From positions 1 through 35,198 of the IMG/VR virus record IMGVR_UViG_3300034110_000353: 35,198 nt of DNA; one strand, given 5' to 3'. Below the pieces are notes generated by a model, which saw only the letters and a list, made by a program, of their open reading frames with translations, did not search any database and was not told where the DNA came from. Every line of letters starts with the position of its first letter. Within the stretch, counting starts at the first letter, position 1. The stretch comes from a virus. Made by a program: the position numbers and the translations under genes. This document shows, piece by piece, positions 7,620 through 35,180 of the stretch.

Positions 7620-8010
7620 AACAAACTTTTTACTGCTTTTTACTGACTTTTTTTTAAGTTTTTCTTAGTGTTTATATGGTTTATAGCTGAATAGTAAAAA
7701 TAAAAAAAGTTTTTCCCTATTCTTATATACATTTTTTCAGGGAGTTTGTAAAAAATATTTTTTTTCTAAAAAAGTTTAAAAGTTTTTACTAATTGCCCTC
7801 AAACCCTTTACCAGCCTCAGAAAAAGTTGAGTAAAAAGTCAGTAAAAACATCTAAGTTTATAGTAAACTTTTTACTTATTTACTATAATAGACGTGAAAA
7901 AAGAATAATTATAATACTAAACTATAAAATTTTATAGCAAAAAATGGCGGTTTTACTGAGAAAAAGTTAAGTAAAAACTTTATTATGTTAAATAGACTTT
8001 TTACTATAAA
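7620..8010. repeat. Iteron-like block A (TTTTTACT / AGTAAAAA array)
   Basis: Gene-free and very AT-rich. TTTTTACT occurs at 7627, 7637, 7783, 7869 and 7998, and its complement AGTAAAAA at 7693, 7830, 7841 and 7970. Neighbouring sites are 10 or 11 bases apart (7627/7637 and 7830/7841), one helical turn. It shares GTTTTTCTTAGTGTTTA (7658-7674) and the order of elements with block B at 29770-30012. It could be a replication origin, a partition-like or regulator-binding site. Confidence 0.75.
7922..7937. promoter_or_regulatory. 16-bp palindrome in block A
   Basis: CTATAAAATTTTATAG is a perfect palindrome and resembles the CTATAAA-AG-TTTATAG operators at 28556 and 34224 and the related site at 29984. 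Confidence 0.55.
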
Positions 8011-8041
8011 CAAAAAAAAACCTACCTTATTAGGGTAGGTT
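8011..8041 (-). terminator. Rho-independent terminator of the portal gene
   Basis: On the minus strand, AACCTACC (8041-8034) pairs with GGTAGGTT (8026-8019) around a 7-base loop and is followed by a run of T (8020-8012). It lies about 33 bases after the portal stop codon. Confidence 0.85.
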
Positions 8042-8074: not shown

Positions 8075-9301
8075 TTATTGTAAATTGATTATTTCTTTTA
8101 ATTCGTTTGTTGAATATTGCCCTGTTTGTAATAAAGTATTAAAGGCATTCGCTTTTTTCTCGAGTACTTCGGCTTTCTCTTTTAAATTTTCCTGAAGCGC
8201 TGGGATATGTGAATAGTCCAATTCCAACCATTCGCCACGTTCAACAAGTCCAAATAATTGCGATCTATTCATAGCCAGCTCTTCAGCTTCAGGAATTATC
8301 GTTGATTGATAAGCCTGTTTAATTCCCTCCGCTAAATTTTCGTAGGTTGCGCCTTTGTCGCGTGTGAATAAATTATCATTTAAACCGTATTGATCAATAA
8401 TTGAATTAAAATCGGCGTTTACTTCCTCAAATAACATTAAGTCTTTAGTCGGGAACGTCATCGCTTGCCACGTTAAAGCCGTGTTCGTCATAATAACCTG
8501 ACTTTTTTCCTTTTGGATTCCGAACATACGATTATATTCCTTATCTAATCGCTCGCGTTCGGCTGGAGTCAACGGTATTGCTCCCTGACTATCTTTTGAA
8601 TTATTTGATAAAATACCTAACGCACCTTTTTTATTCATTATTACGTTACGAAATTCGTACGAAGCGCGAATATTAGATATTGGCATATAAATAGGGATCA
8701 TTGGCGATTCCCCTTTAATTGGATTTTTACCATTAACAACGCGCGTGTGATTTATTTCGTTTGTTTCGAATATTTCGTAACTATCGCCACGTTCCAATTT
8801 ATAATTTTTAATTACTTCATTAATATCTTTTTGACGGTAAATTTTTCCTGTTGTATTGATTTCGATTTGTGCTGGTGGTAAATTTGTCAATTGCTGAGGC
8901 ATTAACATTGAAGCCGATCTATTTACAAATTCGTAATTATTTCCGTAAATACATTTATTTTCATTCCATTGACGAATTAAATCGTTACCATTCATAAAAA
9001 TATTAGGATTTTCCAATAAATTAACGAAAGGGCTATTTTCTACGATTGTAGCTTTTCCGCCTACGGTTTTGTAGTGTTTCCATTGTCCCGAAGCCAAAAG
9101 GTAGCCACGACGTTGAATAACTGCATAAAGTTGAGGCGTTGTTAAGTAGATATTATAGGCGTCCCAATTGTCAGGGCTTAAAAATTGCGCTGATCCTGTT
9201 AAGACTTGCGACATATAAGACAAATTTTTCGTTCCTGAGTAGGATAAACGACCGCCGAGAAAGGCGTTAAAAAAGTCTGGAATACTTATTTTCATATACA
9301 A
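8075..9301 (-). CDS. Portal protein (HK97-type)
   Basis: 408 residues, the size expected for HK97-family portals. Characteristic features are the early AYNIYLTTPQLYAVIQRRG segment (48-66), the ENPNIFMNGNDLIRQW region, a central stem-like part (EFRNVIMNKKGALGIL), and the C-terminal helical part with EGIKQAYQSTIIPEAEELA. The dodecameric portal forms the DNA gate at one capsid vertex. It is the only structural gene on the minus strand, though its place between terminase and protease is canonical. It has its own terminator and a candidate promoter. A second Met lies two codons in. Confidence 0.88.
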   Translation of the reverse strand: MYMKISIPDFFNAFLGGRLSYSGTKNLSYMSQVLTGSAQFLSPDNWDAYNIYLTTPQLYAVIQRRGYLLASGQWKHYKTVGGKATIVENSPFVNLLENPNIFMNGNDLIRQWNENKCIYGNNYEFVNRSASMLMPQQLTNLPPAQIEINTTGKIYRQKDINEVIKNYKLERGDSYEIFETNEINHTRVVNGKNPIKGESPMIPIYMPISNIRASYEFRNVIMNKKGALGILSNNSKDSQGAIPLTPAERERLDKEYNRMFGIQKEKSQVIMTNTALTWQAMTFPTKDLMLFEEVNADFNSIIDQYGLNDNLFTRDKGATYENLAEGIKQAYQSTIIPEAEELAMNRSQLFGLVERGEWLELDYSHIPALQENLKEKAEVLEKKANAFNTLLQTGQYSTNELKEIINLQ

Positions 9302-28413: not shown

Positions 28414-28421
28414 TATATTTG
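28414..28421 (+). promoter_or_regulatory. Candidate -7 box after the endolysin
   Basis: TATATTTG directly after the endolysin stop, without a convincing -33 element and with no open frame before the terminator at 28448. It may be chance or drive a short RNA. Confidence 0.25.
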
Positions 28422-28447
28422 TAACGTTTTGGATTTATGTTTTGTTG

Positions 28448-28480
28448 AAAAAGGGGTTTATTTAGGTAGATCCCTTTTTT
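28448..28480 (+). terminator. Rho-independent terminator of the late operon
   Basis: AAAAAGGGG (28448-28456), a loop, then TCCC and a T-run ending at 28480. It ends the lysis transcript before the early promoter at 28549. Confidence 0.8.
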
Positions 28481-28548
28481 ATTTTACGAGTATTTATAAG
28501 GGTTTCAGAAAAAAATTAAAAAAAAATTAAAAAAAAAGTAAAAAAAAG

Positions 28549-28579
28549 ATTGCTACTATAAAAGTTTATAGTATATTTG
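28549..28579 (+). promoter_or_regulatory. Early promoter 1 with embedded palindrome
   Basis: ATTG (28549-28552) and TATATTTG (28572-28579), 19 bases apart. The palindrome CTATAAA-AG-TTTATAG (28556-28571) fills most of the spacer and ends at the -7 box. The 29 bases 28557-28585 are identical to 34225-34253 upstream of the ERF gene. Confidence 0.7.
28556..28571. promoter_or_regulatory. Operator-like palindrome 1
   Basis: CTATAAAAGTTTATAG: two 7-base arms that are exact reverse complements around AG. Its placement between the promoter elements suits a repressor site. Confidence 0.6.
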
Positions 28580-28608
28580 TATCACGAAACAATTAAAACA
28601 AAACAAAA

Positions 28609-28770
28609 ATGACAACTCAATTAGCATCAACAAAACAAATTAATTCTTTAAAATTAAAAGCAATTAAAAAAGGTGGTTACGAAAAATTCAAAAATGAAAT
28701 ATTAGAAGCCTGTAAAAATCATTTTGAAAATTTTGGAATTGATTTAACACCAAAACATTTATTAAATTAA
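28609..28770 (+). CDS. First early protein, 53 aa
   Basis: ATG 24 bases after the promoter-repeat region. The sequence MTTQLASTKQINSLKLKAIK followed by KGGYEKFKNEILEAC and a LTPKHLLN end is basic and helical. CpG-poor. It is the first gene behind a strong-looking promoter, a place often used for host-takeover proteins; nothing in the sequence identifies a role. Confidence 0.5.
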   Translation: MTTQLASTKQINSLKLKAIKKGGYEKFKNEILEACKNHFENFGIDLTPKHLLN

Positions 28771-28826
28771 TAAAAACAGGGGTGCGACTGTAACGCACAA
28801 TTTTACAAACTTAAAACAAAACAAAA

Positions 28827-29006
28827 ATGGAAAATGTATTTATCCCTTTAAAGCCAAATATCGCAAGAATGCGTAAATTTTGGACGAAAGAAAAACAAAC
28901 AAAGGCGGAAGATCGCGCTGGAAATTTCAATTTAGAATTATATTTCGATTACTTAAATGTTATTAACGAGGGTTTTTGCGAACCTGTAAAAACTTTGAAA
29001 AAATGA
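28827..29006 (+). CDS. Early protein, 59 aa
   Basis: ATG at 28827 in an A-rich context (ACAAAAATGG). Residues 1-30 are basic (PNIARMRKFWTKEKQTK), and the rest contains an aromatic stretch (LELYFDYLNVINEGF). Overlaps the next gene by 4 bases (ATGA). Unknown function. Confidence 0.5.
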   Translation: MENVFIPLKPNIARMRKFWTKEKQTKAEDRAGNFNLELYFDYLNVINEGFCEPVKTLKK

Positions 29007-29768: not shown

Positions 29769-30012
29769 AAACTTTTTACTTGTTTTTACTGTCTTTTTAC
29801 TGGGTTTTTCTTAGTGTTTACAAGGAATAGTTAAAAAGTAAAACTTTTTTACATATTACTTAAATATATTTATTTCTTTACTTTACTTAAAAAAAAAAAA
29901 TTTGAAAAAAACTTTAAATGTTTTTACTTTTGCCCTGAAACGTAGAGCCTGACTCAGAAAAAGTTAGTAAAAAGTGAGTAAAAAGATAAAATTTTATAGA
30001 AAAGTTTTTACT
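29769..30012. repeat. Iteron-like block B (TTTTTACT / AGTAAAAA array)
   Basis: Gene-free. TTTTTACT at 29773, 29783, 29794, 29921 and 30005; AGTAAAAA at 29966 and 29977. The first three are spaced 10 and 11 bases, and the last pair 11. It shares GTTTTTCTTAGTGTTTA (29804-29820), a TTGCCCT...CAGAAAAAGTT segment and the following site pair with block A. An A-tract and AT-rich core lie between. It sits just upstream of the SF3 helicase operon, a usual place for a phage origin. Confidence 0.75.
29984..29999. promoter_or_regulatory. Palindrome in block B
   Basis: AGATAAAATTTTATAG, with a 12-base perfect core (ATAAAATTTTAT). It matches the palindrome at 7922-7937 at 14 of 16 positions and takes the same place relative to the AGTAAAAA pair. 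Confidence 0.5.
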
Positions 30013-30027
30013 ATTTAAAAATTTTTA

Positions 30028-30035
30028 TATATTTG
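30028..30035 (+). promoter_or_regulatory. Candidate -7 box of the helicase operon
   Basis: TATATTTG at 26 bases before the ATG at 30061. The region 20 bases upstream is T-rich (GTTTTTACT) without a perfect TTTG, and overlaps the last iteron-like site (30005-30012), so a protein bound there could control this promoter. Confidence 0.5.
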
Positions 30036-30060: not shown

Positions 30061-30249
30061 ATGGAAACAATTACTCAATTACTTCGGGATCGCTTCCCAA
30101 ATTTGGAAATTTCCTATTCAGGAAAAACAGTAACCGTAAACGGTATTATTCAATACAAAGAAATATTCAGGCTATGCCACGAATATAATTCGGTAAAAGA
30201 ATATAGTTTATTTATGCTCGACGGCTTAACTGTAATAACTTTTTTATGA
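30061..30249 (+). CDS. Small protein upstream of the helicase, 62 aa
   Basis: METITQLLRDRFPNLEISYSGKTV start, compact alpha/beta pattern, overlapping the helicase start by 4 bases (ATGA). Co-translated with the helicase and therefore possibly a partner or a DNA-binding accessory, but this is only context. Confidence 0.55.
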   Translation: METITQLLRDRFPNLEISYSGKTVTVNGIIQYKEIFRLCHEYNSVKEYSLFMLDGLTVITFL

Positions 30250-31688
30250 AACGATTTTGGACGGAAACGGAAAACGGTCGTATATTCTTAGATAATTACG
30301 ATTTTAAGTTTTTTTTAGAGGATAAAAATTTCTTCAAAAATAAACCAAACGAAAAAAGTAGTTTTAACATAATTTGTAAGGACGGAATTTTTCTTAAAAT
30401 TTACGACGAGCTGGACGTTAAGGATTACGTTTTAGATTATATTTTAAATAACGACATCGGCAAAAGGGTTTACAATTTAATGACTGGCAAAGCGTCAATT
30501 TTTACTCGTCAATTTTTATCAATGATTAAGACGGAAGAAATTAACGTATTGCGCGATACAAAAGATACAGCGTTTTTATTTTATCAAAACGGCGTTGTTG
30601 AAATTAATAAAGACAAAGACGAATTAAAACCTTACGAAAGTTATGGATTGCACGTTTGGGAGGATCAAGTTATAAAAAGGGACTATATTCCAGCCGACCA
30701 CCATACGAGCGAATACAGGACGTTTATTTGGAAAATTTCAGGCGGTTTCGATTTACCACAAAACGCAACGCCTCAGGAATTGGAAACTTATAACACCGCC
30801 GTAGATCGTTACAATACGTTTCAAACTGTTATCGGTTACTTATTACACAGTTACAACGTAGGGGGCGATAATAAAGCGATAATATTAAACGACGAATTAA
30901 TTTCAGACGATCCAAACGGAAGAAGCGGAAAGGGTTTATTTTGGAATGGTTTAAAACACCTTAAAAAAGTTCAATCATTGAACGGAAAATCGTTTAAATT
31001 CGACGCTCCTTTTCCTTATCAAAGTGTAAAAACTGACTGCCAAATATTAGTTTGGGACGACGTTAAAAAGAACTTTGATTTTGAACAGCTATTTTCTGTA
31101 ATTACTGAGGGGATCGAAATAACGTATAAAGGCAAAGATACGATTAAACTACCGATCGAAGAAAGTCCGAAAATATTAATTACAACAAACTACACAATTA
31201 AGGGGAAAGGCGGAAGCCACGACGCTCGAAAATTTGAAGTTGAACTTTCAACGTTTTTTAATTCAGATTACACGCCGATAGATTTTTTCGGGCATAAACT
31301 TTTTGACAGCTGGGACGATCAGGAATGGGCGCGCTTCGATTGTTATATGATTGAATGTTTAAAAAAGTATTTAACAAATGGGTTGATGTCTTATAAGTCG
31401 ATTTCGTTACCGTTTAAAAAATTACAGGTTGAAATTAGCAAAGAATTATTTGAATGTATTGAAACAACGCCACGAAACGAATGGATCGACGCGAATACAT
31501 TTTACGATACTTATATTTCAATGATCCCGAAACGTTGGAACGCTAAAACAAAAAACAGCGTAACGATTGATTTAAAAAAATATTGTAAATTTTACGGGCT
31601 GGAATACGAATCTATTTTGAGTAATGGAATTAAAAAATTCAGTATAAATAAAAGCGGTTTTGAAAATTTAACAAATGATCCTTTTTAA
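30246..31688 (+). CDS. SF3 / D5-like replicative helicase (DUF5906-type)
   Basis: 480 residues. Walker A in DDPNGRSGKG (221-230), Walker B ILVWDD (267-272), and the SF3-type sensor ILITTNY (310-316), then an arginine-containing region (DARKFEVELS). The N-terminal ~200 residues resemble the linker part of D5-type phage proteins; I see no zinc or TOPRIM primase motif, so it may depend on a host primase or only unwind DNA. It would act at the origin, which could be block B directly upstream. A few tiny genes follow in the same operon. Confidence 0.85.
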   Translation: MKRFWTETENGRIFLDNYDFKFFLEDKNFFKNKPNEKSSFNIICKDGIFLKIYDELDVKDYVLDYILNNDIGKRVYNLMTGKASIFTRQFLSMIKTEEINVLRDTKDTAFLFYQNGVVEINKDKDELKPYESYGLHVWEDQVIKRDYIPADHHTSEYRTFIWKISGGFDLPQNATPQELETYNTAVDRYNTFQTVIGYLLHSYNVGGDNKAIILNDELISDDPNGRSGKGLFWNGLKHLKKVQSLNGKSFKFDAPFPYQSVKTDCQILVWDDVKKNFDFEQLFSVITEGIEITYKGKDTIKLPIEESPKILITTNYTIKGKGGSHDARKFEVELSTFFNSDYTPIDFFGHKLFDSWDDQEWARFDCYMIECLKKYLTNGLMSYKSISLPFKKLQVEISKELFECIETTPRNEWIDANTFYDTYISMIPKRWNAKTKNSVTIDLKKYCKFYGLEYESILSNGIKKFSINKSGFENLTNDPF

Positions 31689-31690
31689 TT

Positions 31691-31990
31691 ATGGAAAATA
31701 TAAAAGATTTATTTAAAAAATACGGGTTGGATCAAAACCACGTTTTAGGGCTAGAATATAAAAAGACACAATTTTTCTTAGACGAGTTGATTTTAAGAAC
31801 TGAAAAAACTTTAATAGATATTCAGGATAAGGAGGGTTTAGATTATTATTCTGAGCGTCAAAAGTCAGTTGAAACAACTTTACAAAGATTGTTATTTGTG
31901 AATAGCAAAGTTCGACAAATGGAGCTTTTAATTTACCGGCTGGAGCTGGAAAACGAACTATTATCAAAACGATTAAAATTAAGAAAATGA
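31691..31990 (+). CDS. Coiled-coil protein, 99 aa
   Basis: Starts 2 bases after the helicase stop. Mostly helical with heptad-like Leu/Ile spacing at the end (MELLIYRLELENELLSKRLKL, about 76-96). No catalytic motif. It overlaps the next gene by 4 bases. Possibly a replication accessory; not recognised. Confidence 0.55.
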   Translation: MENIKDLFKKYGLDQNHVLGLEYKKTQFFLDELILRTEKTLIDIQDKEGLDYYSERQKSVETTLQRLLFVNSKVRQMELLIYRLELENELLSKRLKLRK

Positions 31991-34022: not shown

Positions 34023-34239
34023 TCTTAAAATTTCATTAAAAAAACCAGCCAAAAACACAAAGTTAATAGTAAAAATATTGGAAAAATACCCTGTTATTTT
34101 AGACGAAAACAAAAATTTACCACAAAAAGAAAAAAATAAATTAGCCCTGAAACACTTGAAAACATTAGAATTATGCGATTTTGAAATAAAAAATTTAAAA
34201 TTTTCTTCAAATATTTGTTATATATATAAAAGTTTATAG
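34000..34239 (+). CDS. Hypothetical Lys/Leu-rich protein, 79 aa
   Basis: MYAIYIVDLKISLKKPAKNTK start, then basic helices (LPQKEKNKLALKHLKTLE) and an aromatic end. It overlaps the nuclease gene by 23 bases in another frame, and its last bases lie within the palindrome of the ERF promoter. Not recognised. Confidence 0.45.
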   Translation: MYAIYIVDLKISLKKPAKNTKLIVKILEKYPVILDENKNLPQKEKNKLALKHLKTLELCDFEIKNLKFSSNICYIYKSL

Positions 34240-34247
34240 TATATTTG
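34214..34247 (+). promoter_or_regulatory. Early promoter 2 (ERF/exonuclease operon)
   Basis: TTTG (34214-34217) and TATATTTG (34240-34247), 22 bases apart, slightly long. Bases 34225-34253 are identical to 28557-28585 at promoter 1. The start codon is at 34271. Confidence 0.7.
34224..34239. promoter_or_regulatory. Operator-like palindrome 2
   Basis: ATATAAAAGTTTATAG, differing from palindrome 1 (28556) at the first base only, in the same place relative to the -7 box. Confidence 0.6.
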
Positions 34248-34270
34248 TATCACATAAAACATAAAACAAA

Positions 34271-34909
34271 ATGAAAAAAGAAGAAACACAAACACCAATT
34301 GAAATTGATAATTTGCATAGTGCAATTATCAAAGTAATGCAAGACGTCAAAAATATCGACAAGTCAATGACTATCGGCGAGGGGCGTAATTCTTATAAAG
34401 GCGTAGCCGACAAAGACGTTAAATTTATTATCGGTCAATCAATGGCAAAAAACGGTTTAACCTGTTTACCTATAAACATACAACCGTCTATGAAAATTGA
34501 GCGTTGGGAGGCTTTGGATTACTCAGGAAAACCAACTATGAAACAGTCAGTTTTTACGGAAGTACTTTGTACGTACAAAATAACGCATTCATTAAGCAAC
34601 GAATCAATTGAAATACAGGGTTACGGACACGGCGTTGATGCTCAGGATAAATCAGCTGGCAAAGCGTTGACGTATGCGCTTAAAAACGCTTTATTATATA
34701 TGTTCTTAGTACCTACAGGATCAATCGAGGATACGGACAATACGCATTCGGATAAAATAGAAACACCAGCACCAACAAAGCCCGAAATAACGCCTGAGCG
34801 ATTCGTTAAGGCTGTGGAAGCGATTACAGCTGGAACGTACAAAAAAGAAACATTAGAACAAAATTTTAACTTAACAAAAGATCAAAAAGATGCAATTTCA
34901 AAACTATAA
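34271..34909 (+). CDS. erf: ERF family single-strand DNA annealing protein
   Basis: 212 residues. NLHSAIIKVMQDV at the start, GEGRNSYKGV (36-45), and the family signature GHGVDAQDKSAGKALTYALK (119-138). The C-terminal part is Pro/Glu-rich followed by a helical tail. ERF proteins form rings on single-stranded DNA and anneal complementary strands. The exonuclease gene overlaps its 3' end by 20 bases, a Red-type pair. Downstream of promoter 2 with its palindromic operator, so likely early and regulated together with promoter 1. Confidence 0.88.
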   Translation: MKKEETQTPIEIDNLHSAIIKVMQDVKNIDKSMTIGEGRNSYKGVADKDVKFIIGQSMAKNGLTCLPINIQPSMKIERWEALDYSGKPTMKQSVFTEVLCTYKITHSLSNESIEIQGYGHGVDAQDKSAGKALTYALKNALLYMFLVPTGSIEDTDNTHSDKIETPAPTKPEITPERFVKAVEAITAGTYKKETLEQNFNLTKDQKDAISKL

Positions 34910-35180
34910 ATTTCGCCCGTCAAGTATCGGTAAAATAATGACTGGATTCGATACGCCAAATTTAACGGAAGTAATGGAACGCGATTTAAGCGAATTACTT
35001 GCAAAAGTTACCTTAACGGAAGCGCAAGCAAAAAAACGCGACGAATTAACAAAGCGTCGCGATGCTGAAAAACAGCTTTCGGCTGGAGCTATCACATACG
35101 TTCACGACTTAGTAGATCAAATTTATTACGATTATAAGGATTTTATTACTTCTAAATATTTCGACAAGGGTATTATTTGA
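34890..35180 (+). CDS. YqaJ/lambda-exonuclease-like nuclease, N-terminal part (continues at 2-583)
   Basis: Start ATG inside the end of the ERF gene. The first residues (FRPSSIGKIMTG) are the recognition-like start typical of YqaJ-type nucleases, followed by a Lys/Glu helical region. The frame stops at TGA 35178-35180 only because the sequence folds back onto the other strand there; the true frame continues as in bases 126-583, giving 248 residues in total. See the entry at 2-583 for catalytic residues. Confidence 0.8.
   Translation: MQFQNYKFRPSSIGKIMTGFDTPNLTEVMERDLSELLAKVTLTEAQAKKRDELTKRRDAEKQLSAGAITYVHDLVDQIYYDYKDFITSKYFDKGII
35054..35179. repeat. Terminal direct repeat, right copy
   Basis: Identical to bases 1-126. 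After this point the sequence no longer matches the expected continuation (GCGAAC at 126-131). Confidence 0.95.

Follow-up and report, generated by a model that had tools for sequence, protein, structure and literature searches.

The window, the whole stretch of 35,198 nucleotides of viral DNA analysed here, carries the structural gene set of a tailed phage with terminase, portal, capsid and tail genes. Self-comparison identified positions 1-126 as an exact repeat of 35054-35179, an exonuclease gene is cut by the end-to-end junction (34890-35180 and 134-583), and the relative G001 reads across this junction; thus the genome is circular or circularly permuted with a size of about 35,053 bp. At the very end, 24 bases repeat 46-69 in inverted orientation, which probably is an artefact of assembly. 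The nearest named terminases belong to phages of Olleya, Leeuwenhoekiella and Nonlabens/Persicivirga, and relatives of the helicase within cellular assemblies sit in Bacteroidota bins, hence the host probably belongs to the Flavobacteriia or to a related Bacteroidota class. An HNH endonuclease gene (822-1250) had no detected counterpart in G001 and G002, both of which include the genes next to it, and is probably a mobile homing-type insertion. The replication module contains a repeat-rich non-coding region, named block B, in front of a helicase operon:

29769-30017, block B, proposed replication origin, an iteron region with dyad symmetry preceding the helicase operon (alignment to block A, relatives, constrained sites)
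29773-29801, minus strand, left-arm iterons of B, three copies of TTTTTACT (starts 29773, 29783 and 29794, spacing 10 and 11; direct reading)
29805-29816, plus strand, left element E of B, TTTTTCTTAGTG, conserved across relatives with differing iterons (12-block alignment)
29844-29919, AT-rich centre of B and candidate unwinding region, most 50-base windows having 84-90 % A+T
29921-29936, inner iteron TTTTTACT of B (29921), then TTTGCCCT (29929) (direct reading)
29952-29963, minus strand, right element E of B, ACTCAGAAAAAG, inverted partner of the left element E
29966-29984, plus strand, right-arm iterons of B, two copies of AGTAAAAA 11 bases apart (starts 29966 and 29977; direct reading)
30005-30012, minus strand, iteron TTTTTACT that completes the right palindrome of B, shortly before the promoter (direct reading)
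30028-30035, plus strand, promoter element TATATTTG of the helicase operon, abutted by the right palindrome of B (scan)
30061-30249, plus strand, fast-evolving 62-aa ORF
30246-31688, plus strand, SF3 (D5-like) helicase of 480 aa, with a winged helix predicted at residues about 388-470 as the proposed iteron reader (AlphaFold2, PDB comparison)
31691-31990, plus strand, 99-aa ORF, helicase-linked in relatives (about 31-48 % identity), candidate rival iteron binder

Direct reading recovered all elements of block B at the places given in the preliminary description, including the leading sites at a spacing of 10 and 11 bases, TTTTTCTTAGTGTTTA at 29805 and CAGAAAAAGTT at 29955. The longest inverted repeat of B comprises 33 nt and pairs 29783-29815 with 29952-29984 at 82 %. 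Read inwards, an arm consists of two to three iterons at 10-11 bp spacing, followed by the element E (TTTTTCTkAGTG), a GTTTaCaaGG-like stretch, an inner iteron-like site and the AT-rich centre. The promoter element downstream of B corresponds to the Bacteroidota -7 promoter element (consensus TAnnTTTG). The same element TATATTTG was present at 28572 and 34240 in two intergenic stretches of 53 bp that are 87 % alike (28557-28609 and 34225-34277), and at 28414, at the start of a long stretch without credible ORF (28414-28976) that includes an A-tract repeat with an 11-bp period at 28509-28547.

A second copy of the dyad, block A, lies between the genes for the terminase large subunit (terL) and the portal protein:

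7623-7882, block A, second dyad copy, between terL (plus strand) and portal (minus strand)
7627-7644, minus strand, left-arm iterons of A, two exact copies of TTTTTACT (starts 7627 and 7637)
7659-7670, plus strand, left element E of A, TTTTTCTTAGTG
7816-7848, right element E of A, CTCAGAAAAAG, with two AGTAAAAA iterons (7830 and 7841)
7956-8005, extra right-arm-like module, GAGAAAAAGTTAAGTAAAAA to TTTTTACT, unique to A (weak second HMM match at 7955-8006)
8019-8041, minus strand, terminator-like hairpin of the portal gene, bordering A (of a kind found at background frequency, placed by context)

The preliminary description had proposed that the two blocks are homologous, and pairwise alignment bears this out: the local alignment score was 180, while 300 shuffled pairs with preserved dinucleotides averaged 29.6 and did not exceed 43. 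In the blastn self-comparison, the identity was 73.7 % over 262 bp (E 6.6e-35), a separate blastn search yielded 73 % over about 260 bp (E 6e-37). Block A had also been described as having the same order of elements as B. This holds for the end-to-end alignment, but just two of the leading sites of A are exact, the third being TTTTTTTT, and A possesses the extra right-arm module at about 7956-8005. The longest inverted repeat of A is 27 nt (7637-7663 with 7822-7848). Exact AGTAAAAA or TTTTTACT sites occur 27 times in the window, of which seven lie in B, seven in the matching part of A and two just beyond A. Seven iterons within 260 bp were never approached in 200 simulated first-order Markov genomes, which had at most three. 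A profile built from the blocks also matched their own reverse complements with E-values of about 1e-12 to 1e-18, thus each block is a dyad. On the circle of about 35,053 bp, A follows about 12.9 kb after B, in accordance with the distance of about 13 kb expected beforehand. Neither strand of A presented a TATATTTG-type promoter element in the scan, and A holds no credible ORF. While terL and the capsid genes on either side of it are on the plus strand, the portal gene (8075-9301) is on the minus strand; this orientation is shared with G006, G002, L069, L070 and L074, whereas the gene is on the plus strand in the phages Harreka_1 and Arctus_1. Block A is located at the border of this inversion.

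The search in relatives revealed both blocks in the sufficiently complete close relatives, in G006 and G002 at the same two places; the refuting case named in the preliminary description, relatives lacking both, thus did not arise. G001 has block B, its contig ends inside terL. Block A was also present in at least five further contigs (L068, L069, L070, L071 and L074). A single block upstream of the same helicase gene was observed in G003, G004, G005, G007, G008, L085, L086 and L088-L091. A second block was sought and not found in G003, G004 and G008, which have the same replication module with other structural genes, G008 with terminal repeats; consequently, this type of replication can do without the second copy. 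No second block turned up in the partial contigs of more distant relatives either. The copies of A cluster together in a tree, as do the copies of B of the window's lineage, and the identity between A and B (71-74 %) exceeds that of A or B to the block of G003 (58-61 %), which in the simplest reading dates the duplication to after the separation from the G003 lineage. The iterons agree within a phage and differ between phages (AGTAAAAA; AGGCATAAA; AAGTCCACT; AGTGCAAA; AGTAATAAA; TAGGAAAA), yet the block layout is constant and the element E is kept in most relatives, a pattern to be expected if an initiator co-evolves with its sites. Within the window's lineage, variable positions were rarer inside the sites than outside, both in B (3 of 89 versus 24 of 156, p 0.002) and in A (9 of 114 versus 39 of 270, p 0.05), counts that were taken from few sequences with site limits drawn by eye.

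A scan of 2.9 million viral contigs for paired E elements placed all real blocks within this phage group. The E-pattern matches in L113, L116, L119, L120, L122, L125, L126, L128 and L130 were unrelated to the block and were discarded. A blastn search of block B against 50,697 phage records gave no match. The Olleya phage Harreka_1, which shares the terminase, had no block, the terminase locus included, and Arctus_1, sharing the terminase as well, had none in the part searched.

The helicase encoded downstream of B carries a Walker A motif (GRSGKG) and the motif ILVWDDV, features of an SF3 helicase initiator. The full model, in which the core residues 203-332 are poorly modelled, matched the SaPI5 primase-helicase, AsfvPrimPol and poxvirus D5, and its best whole-model matches were SF3/D5 helicases. 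A PDB sequence search with the helicase profile gave one insignificant match. The C-terminal domain was predicted as a winged helix with a pLDDT of about 90. Among its best matches was the origin-binding domain of the P4 protein (1ka8) with Z 7.3 and an rmsd of 2.4 Å over 71 residues, a fit tied by several unrelated winged helices; 1ka8 had the highest sequence identity (17 %) among the structure matches listed. Winged helices are a common fold. Between the window and G003, residues 201-400 of the helicase are 95-100 % identical, residues 401-480 only 65 %, and in other relatives the drop in identity towards the tail is similar or steeper. The 62-aa and 99-aa neighbours are also fast-evolving and could be the iteron binder. 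In longer relatives (L094, L099), the helicase is preceded by a Prim-Pol domain (PF09250). No primase family matched the 480-aa protein, and no other primase was identified in the window; with the Prim-Pol domain missing from this lineage, the primase would have to come from elsewhere.

In the relatives, the leader of the helicase operon may have a function of its own. An H-type pseudoknot with a terminal U-run is possible between the promoter of the block and the first gene of the operon in the 12 relatives tested (L006, that is G003, 1401-1530; equivalents in L007, L008, L010, L011, L085, L086, L088, L089, L090, L091 and L092). In 10 of the 12, the score exceeded those of all 60 shuffles, the exceptions being G007 (2 of 60 as high) and L090 (5 of 60 as high), and the stem sequences differ completely between the phages. 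As many stem choices were allowed and the sequences are related, the pseudoknot has to be seen as a strong lead and not as proof. The leader matched no Rfam family, nor did Rfam match anything in the window or in 11 relatives, and the window's own lineage lacks this leader. An attenuation of initiator expression by this leader is possible.

We consider block B an origin of replication read by the C-terminal winged helix of the helicase, and block A a duplicate bound likewise, which serves as a second origin or as a distant site comparable to crr of P4. To this reading we assign a probability of roughly two thirds. The preliminary description had suggested paired sites recognised by one protein, with B beside the SF3 helicase, and this part is well supported by conservation, layout, predicted fold and site constraint. 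Its wording as a pair of origins fits B, for which an origin is the most likely function; for A, the sequence does not separate an origin from an accessory replication site of the crr-like, titration or handcuffing type. From the evidence above we infer helicase binding, melting of the centre, origin firing and the role of A in the following manner. The SF3 helicase would bind the iterons of both arms of B via its winged helix and form an assembly on the dyad, probably two hexamers oriented towards the AT-rich centre. The assembled helicase would melt this centre and replication would start there, as for P4 alpha and the Rep proteins of SaPIs and PICIs. Block A, the lineage-specific duplicate, would be bound by the same protein and kept under constraint, acting as a further origin or, from a distance, as a cis-acting site that cooperates with B like crr with ori1. 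The GC skew showed no switch at A or at B, a weak test since nearly all genes are on one strand.

The strongest competitor to this reading, possible but clearly the less probable one, regards B as the sole origin and A as a site that restrains initiation by titration, handcuffing or an incompatibility-type effect, or as a decaying relic of the duplication. It agrees with the relatives that manage with one block and with the lack of one exact leading iteron in A. However, A has been kept through the divergence of at least three lineages with copies 91-97 % alike, its sites vary less than the rest of A, and it has an additional right-arm module; a decaying relic is thus unlikely. Regulation of transcription is a less probable explanation still: a phage regulator acting on the repeated sites as operators or enhancers would control the helicase operon at B and another transcript at A. 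The right palindrome of B indeed abuts the TATATTTG element at 30028, and an early 75-aa ORF (1925-2149) weakly matched an HTH (E 0.004). But an AT-rich centre with two arms is more than an operator requires, and in A the whole dyad of 250 bp is kept between convergent gene ends; the lack of a promoter and this position disfavour A as a plain operator. An extra autoregulatory role of B is possible beside its proposed function as origin.

Packaging sites (pac/cos) or centromere-like partition sites are very improbable. Block A directly follows the gene of the terminase large subunit, but B is at the replication module, relatives whose structural genes are unrelated still have the block at the helicase, Harreka_1 has the same terminase without a block beside it, and no ParA/ParM-like gene occurred among the ORFs searched. 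Least probable of all are attachment sites for a tyrosine recombinase, whose arm-type sites are arrays of short sites at 10-11 bp spacing flanking a core, an arrangement that the blocks resemble, since a search of the ORFs gave neither an integrase nor a recombinase, the block position tracks the helicase gene in all relatives, and the duplication spans the whole 250 bp and not the core alone.

The design of the origin itself is known from the iteron origins of the P4/PICI type; its duplication is uncommon and resembles the paired sites of P4. In P4, crr and ori1 lie apart in the genome and share their repeats, and crr presumably bridges to ori1. The window shares with P4 the SF3-type helicase and the two separated cis sites with the same iterons, A and B. 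The C-terminal winged helix predicted for its helicase is a candidate counterpart of the repeat-reading domain of P4. In contrast, P4 is a satellite with a Toprim primase fused to the initiator; the window is a tailed phage with its own structural genes, it lacks this primase and its relatives have a Prim-Pol domain instead, and its two sites are homologous over nearly their full length as copies of one dyad element. The winged helix of P4 alpha binds origin repeats (PMC4234260), and for the two replicons of P4 we refer to the papers cited in PMC6092414. PICI origins have an AT-rich region flanked by two sets of iterons (PMC6092414), and SaPI Rep and Cch2 bind iterons with the C-terminal domain (PMC7581432). 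The SaPI/PICI origin is immediately 3' of rep on an integrated satellite island with an integrase, whereas B is upstream of the helicase operon in a phage with structural genes and no integrase found, and has a second copy 13 kb away. Cch2 of SCCmec is likewise a helicase-only initiator of the D5 family, its C-terminal DNA-binding domain binding direct repeats beside the gene (PMC7581432). The putative SCCmec origin differs in having three short iterons only, with no dyad layout described, and a separately encoded partner primase. Proteins of the pRN1 type have the order of Prim-Pol, SF3 and winged-helix domains found in the longer relatives of the window's helicase (PMC4234260), but the pRN1 origin is a stem-loop without iterons, and the protein of the window has lost the primase part.

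The dyad symmetry, the iteron change between phages and the lineage-specific second copy add to what had been described before. They extend a known origin design to tailed phages of Bacteroidota, in which the letters of the iterons are swapped between phages and the core of the helicase is hardly altered. A bolder interpretation, which we regard as tentative, is that two homologous dyad origins about 13 kb apart are bound by the initiator, or that both have to be bridged by one initiator complex, with an initiator that has shed its primase and with iteron and winged-helix specificity switching together. If this is true, the relatives would be a natural series of orthogonal pairs of initiator and origin. 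The phage series is suited for tests of the co-evolution of winged helix and origin in SF3 initiators, and also for asking whether two such sites can be used by one phage or have to be bridged.
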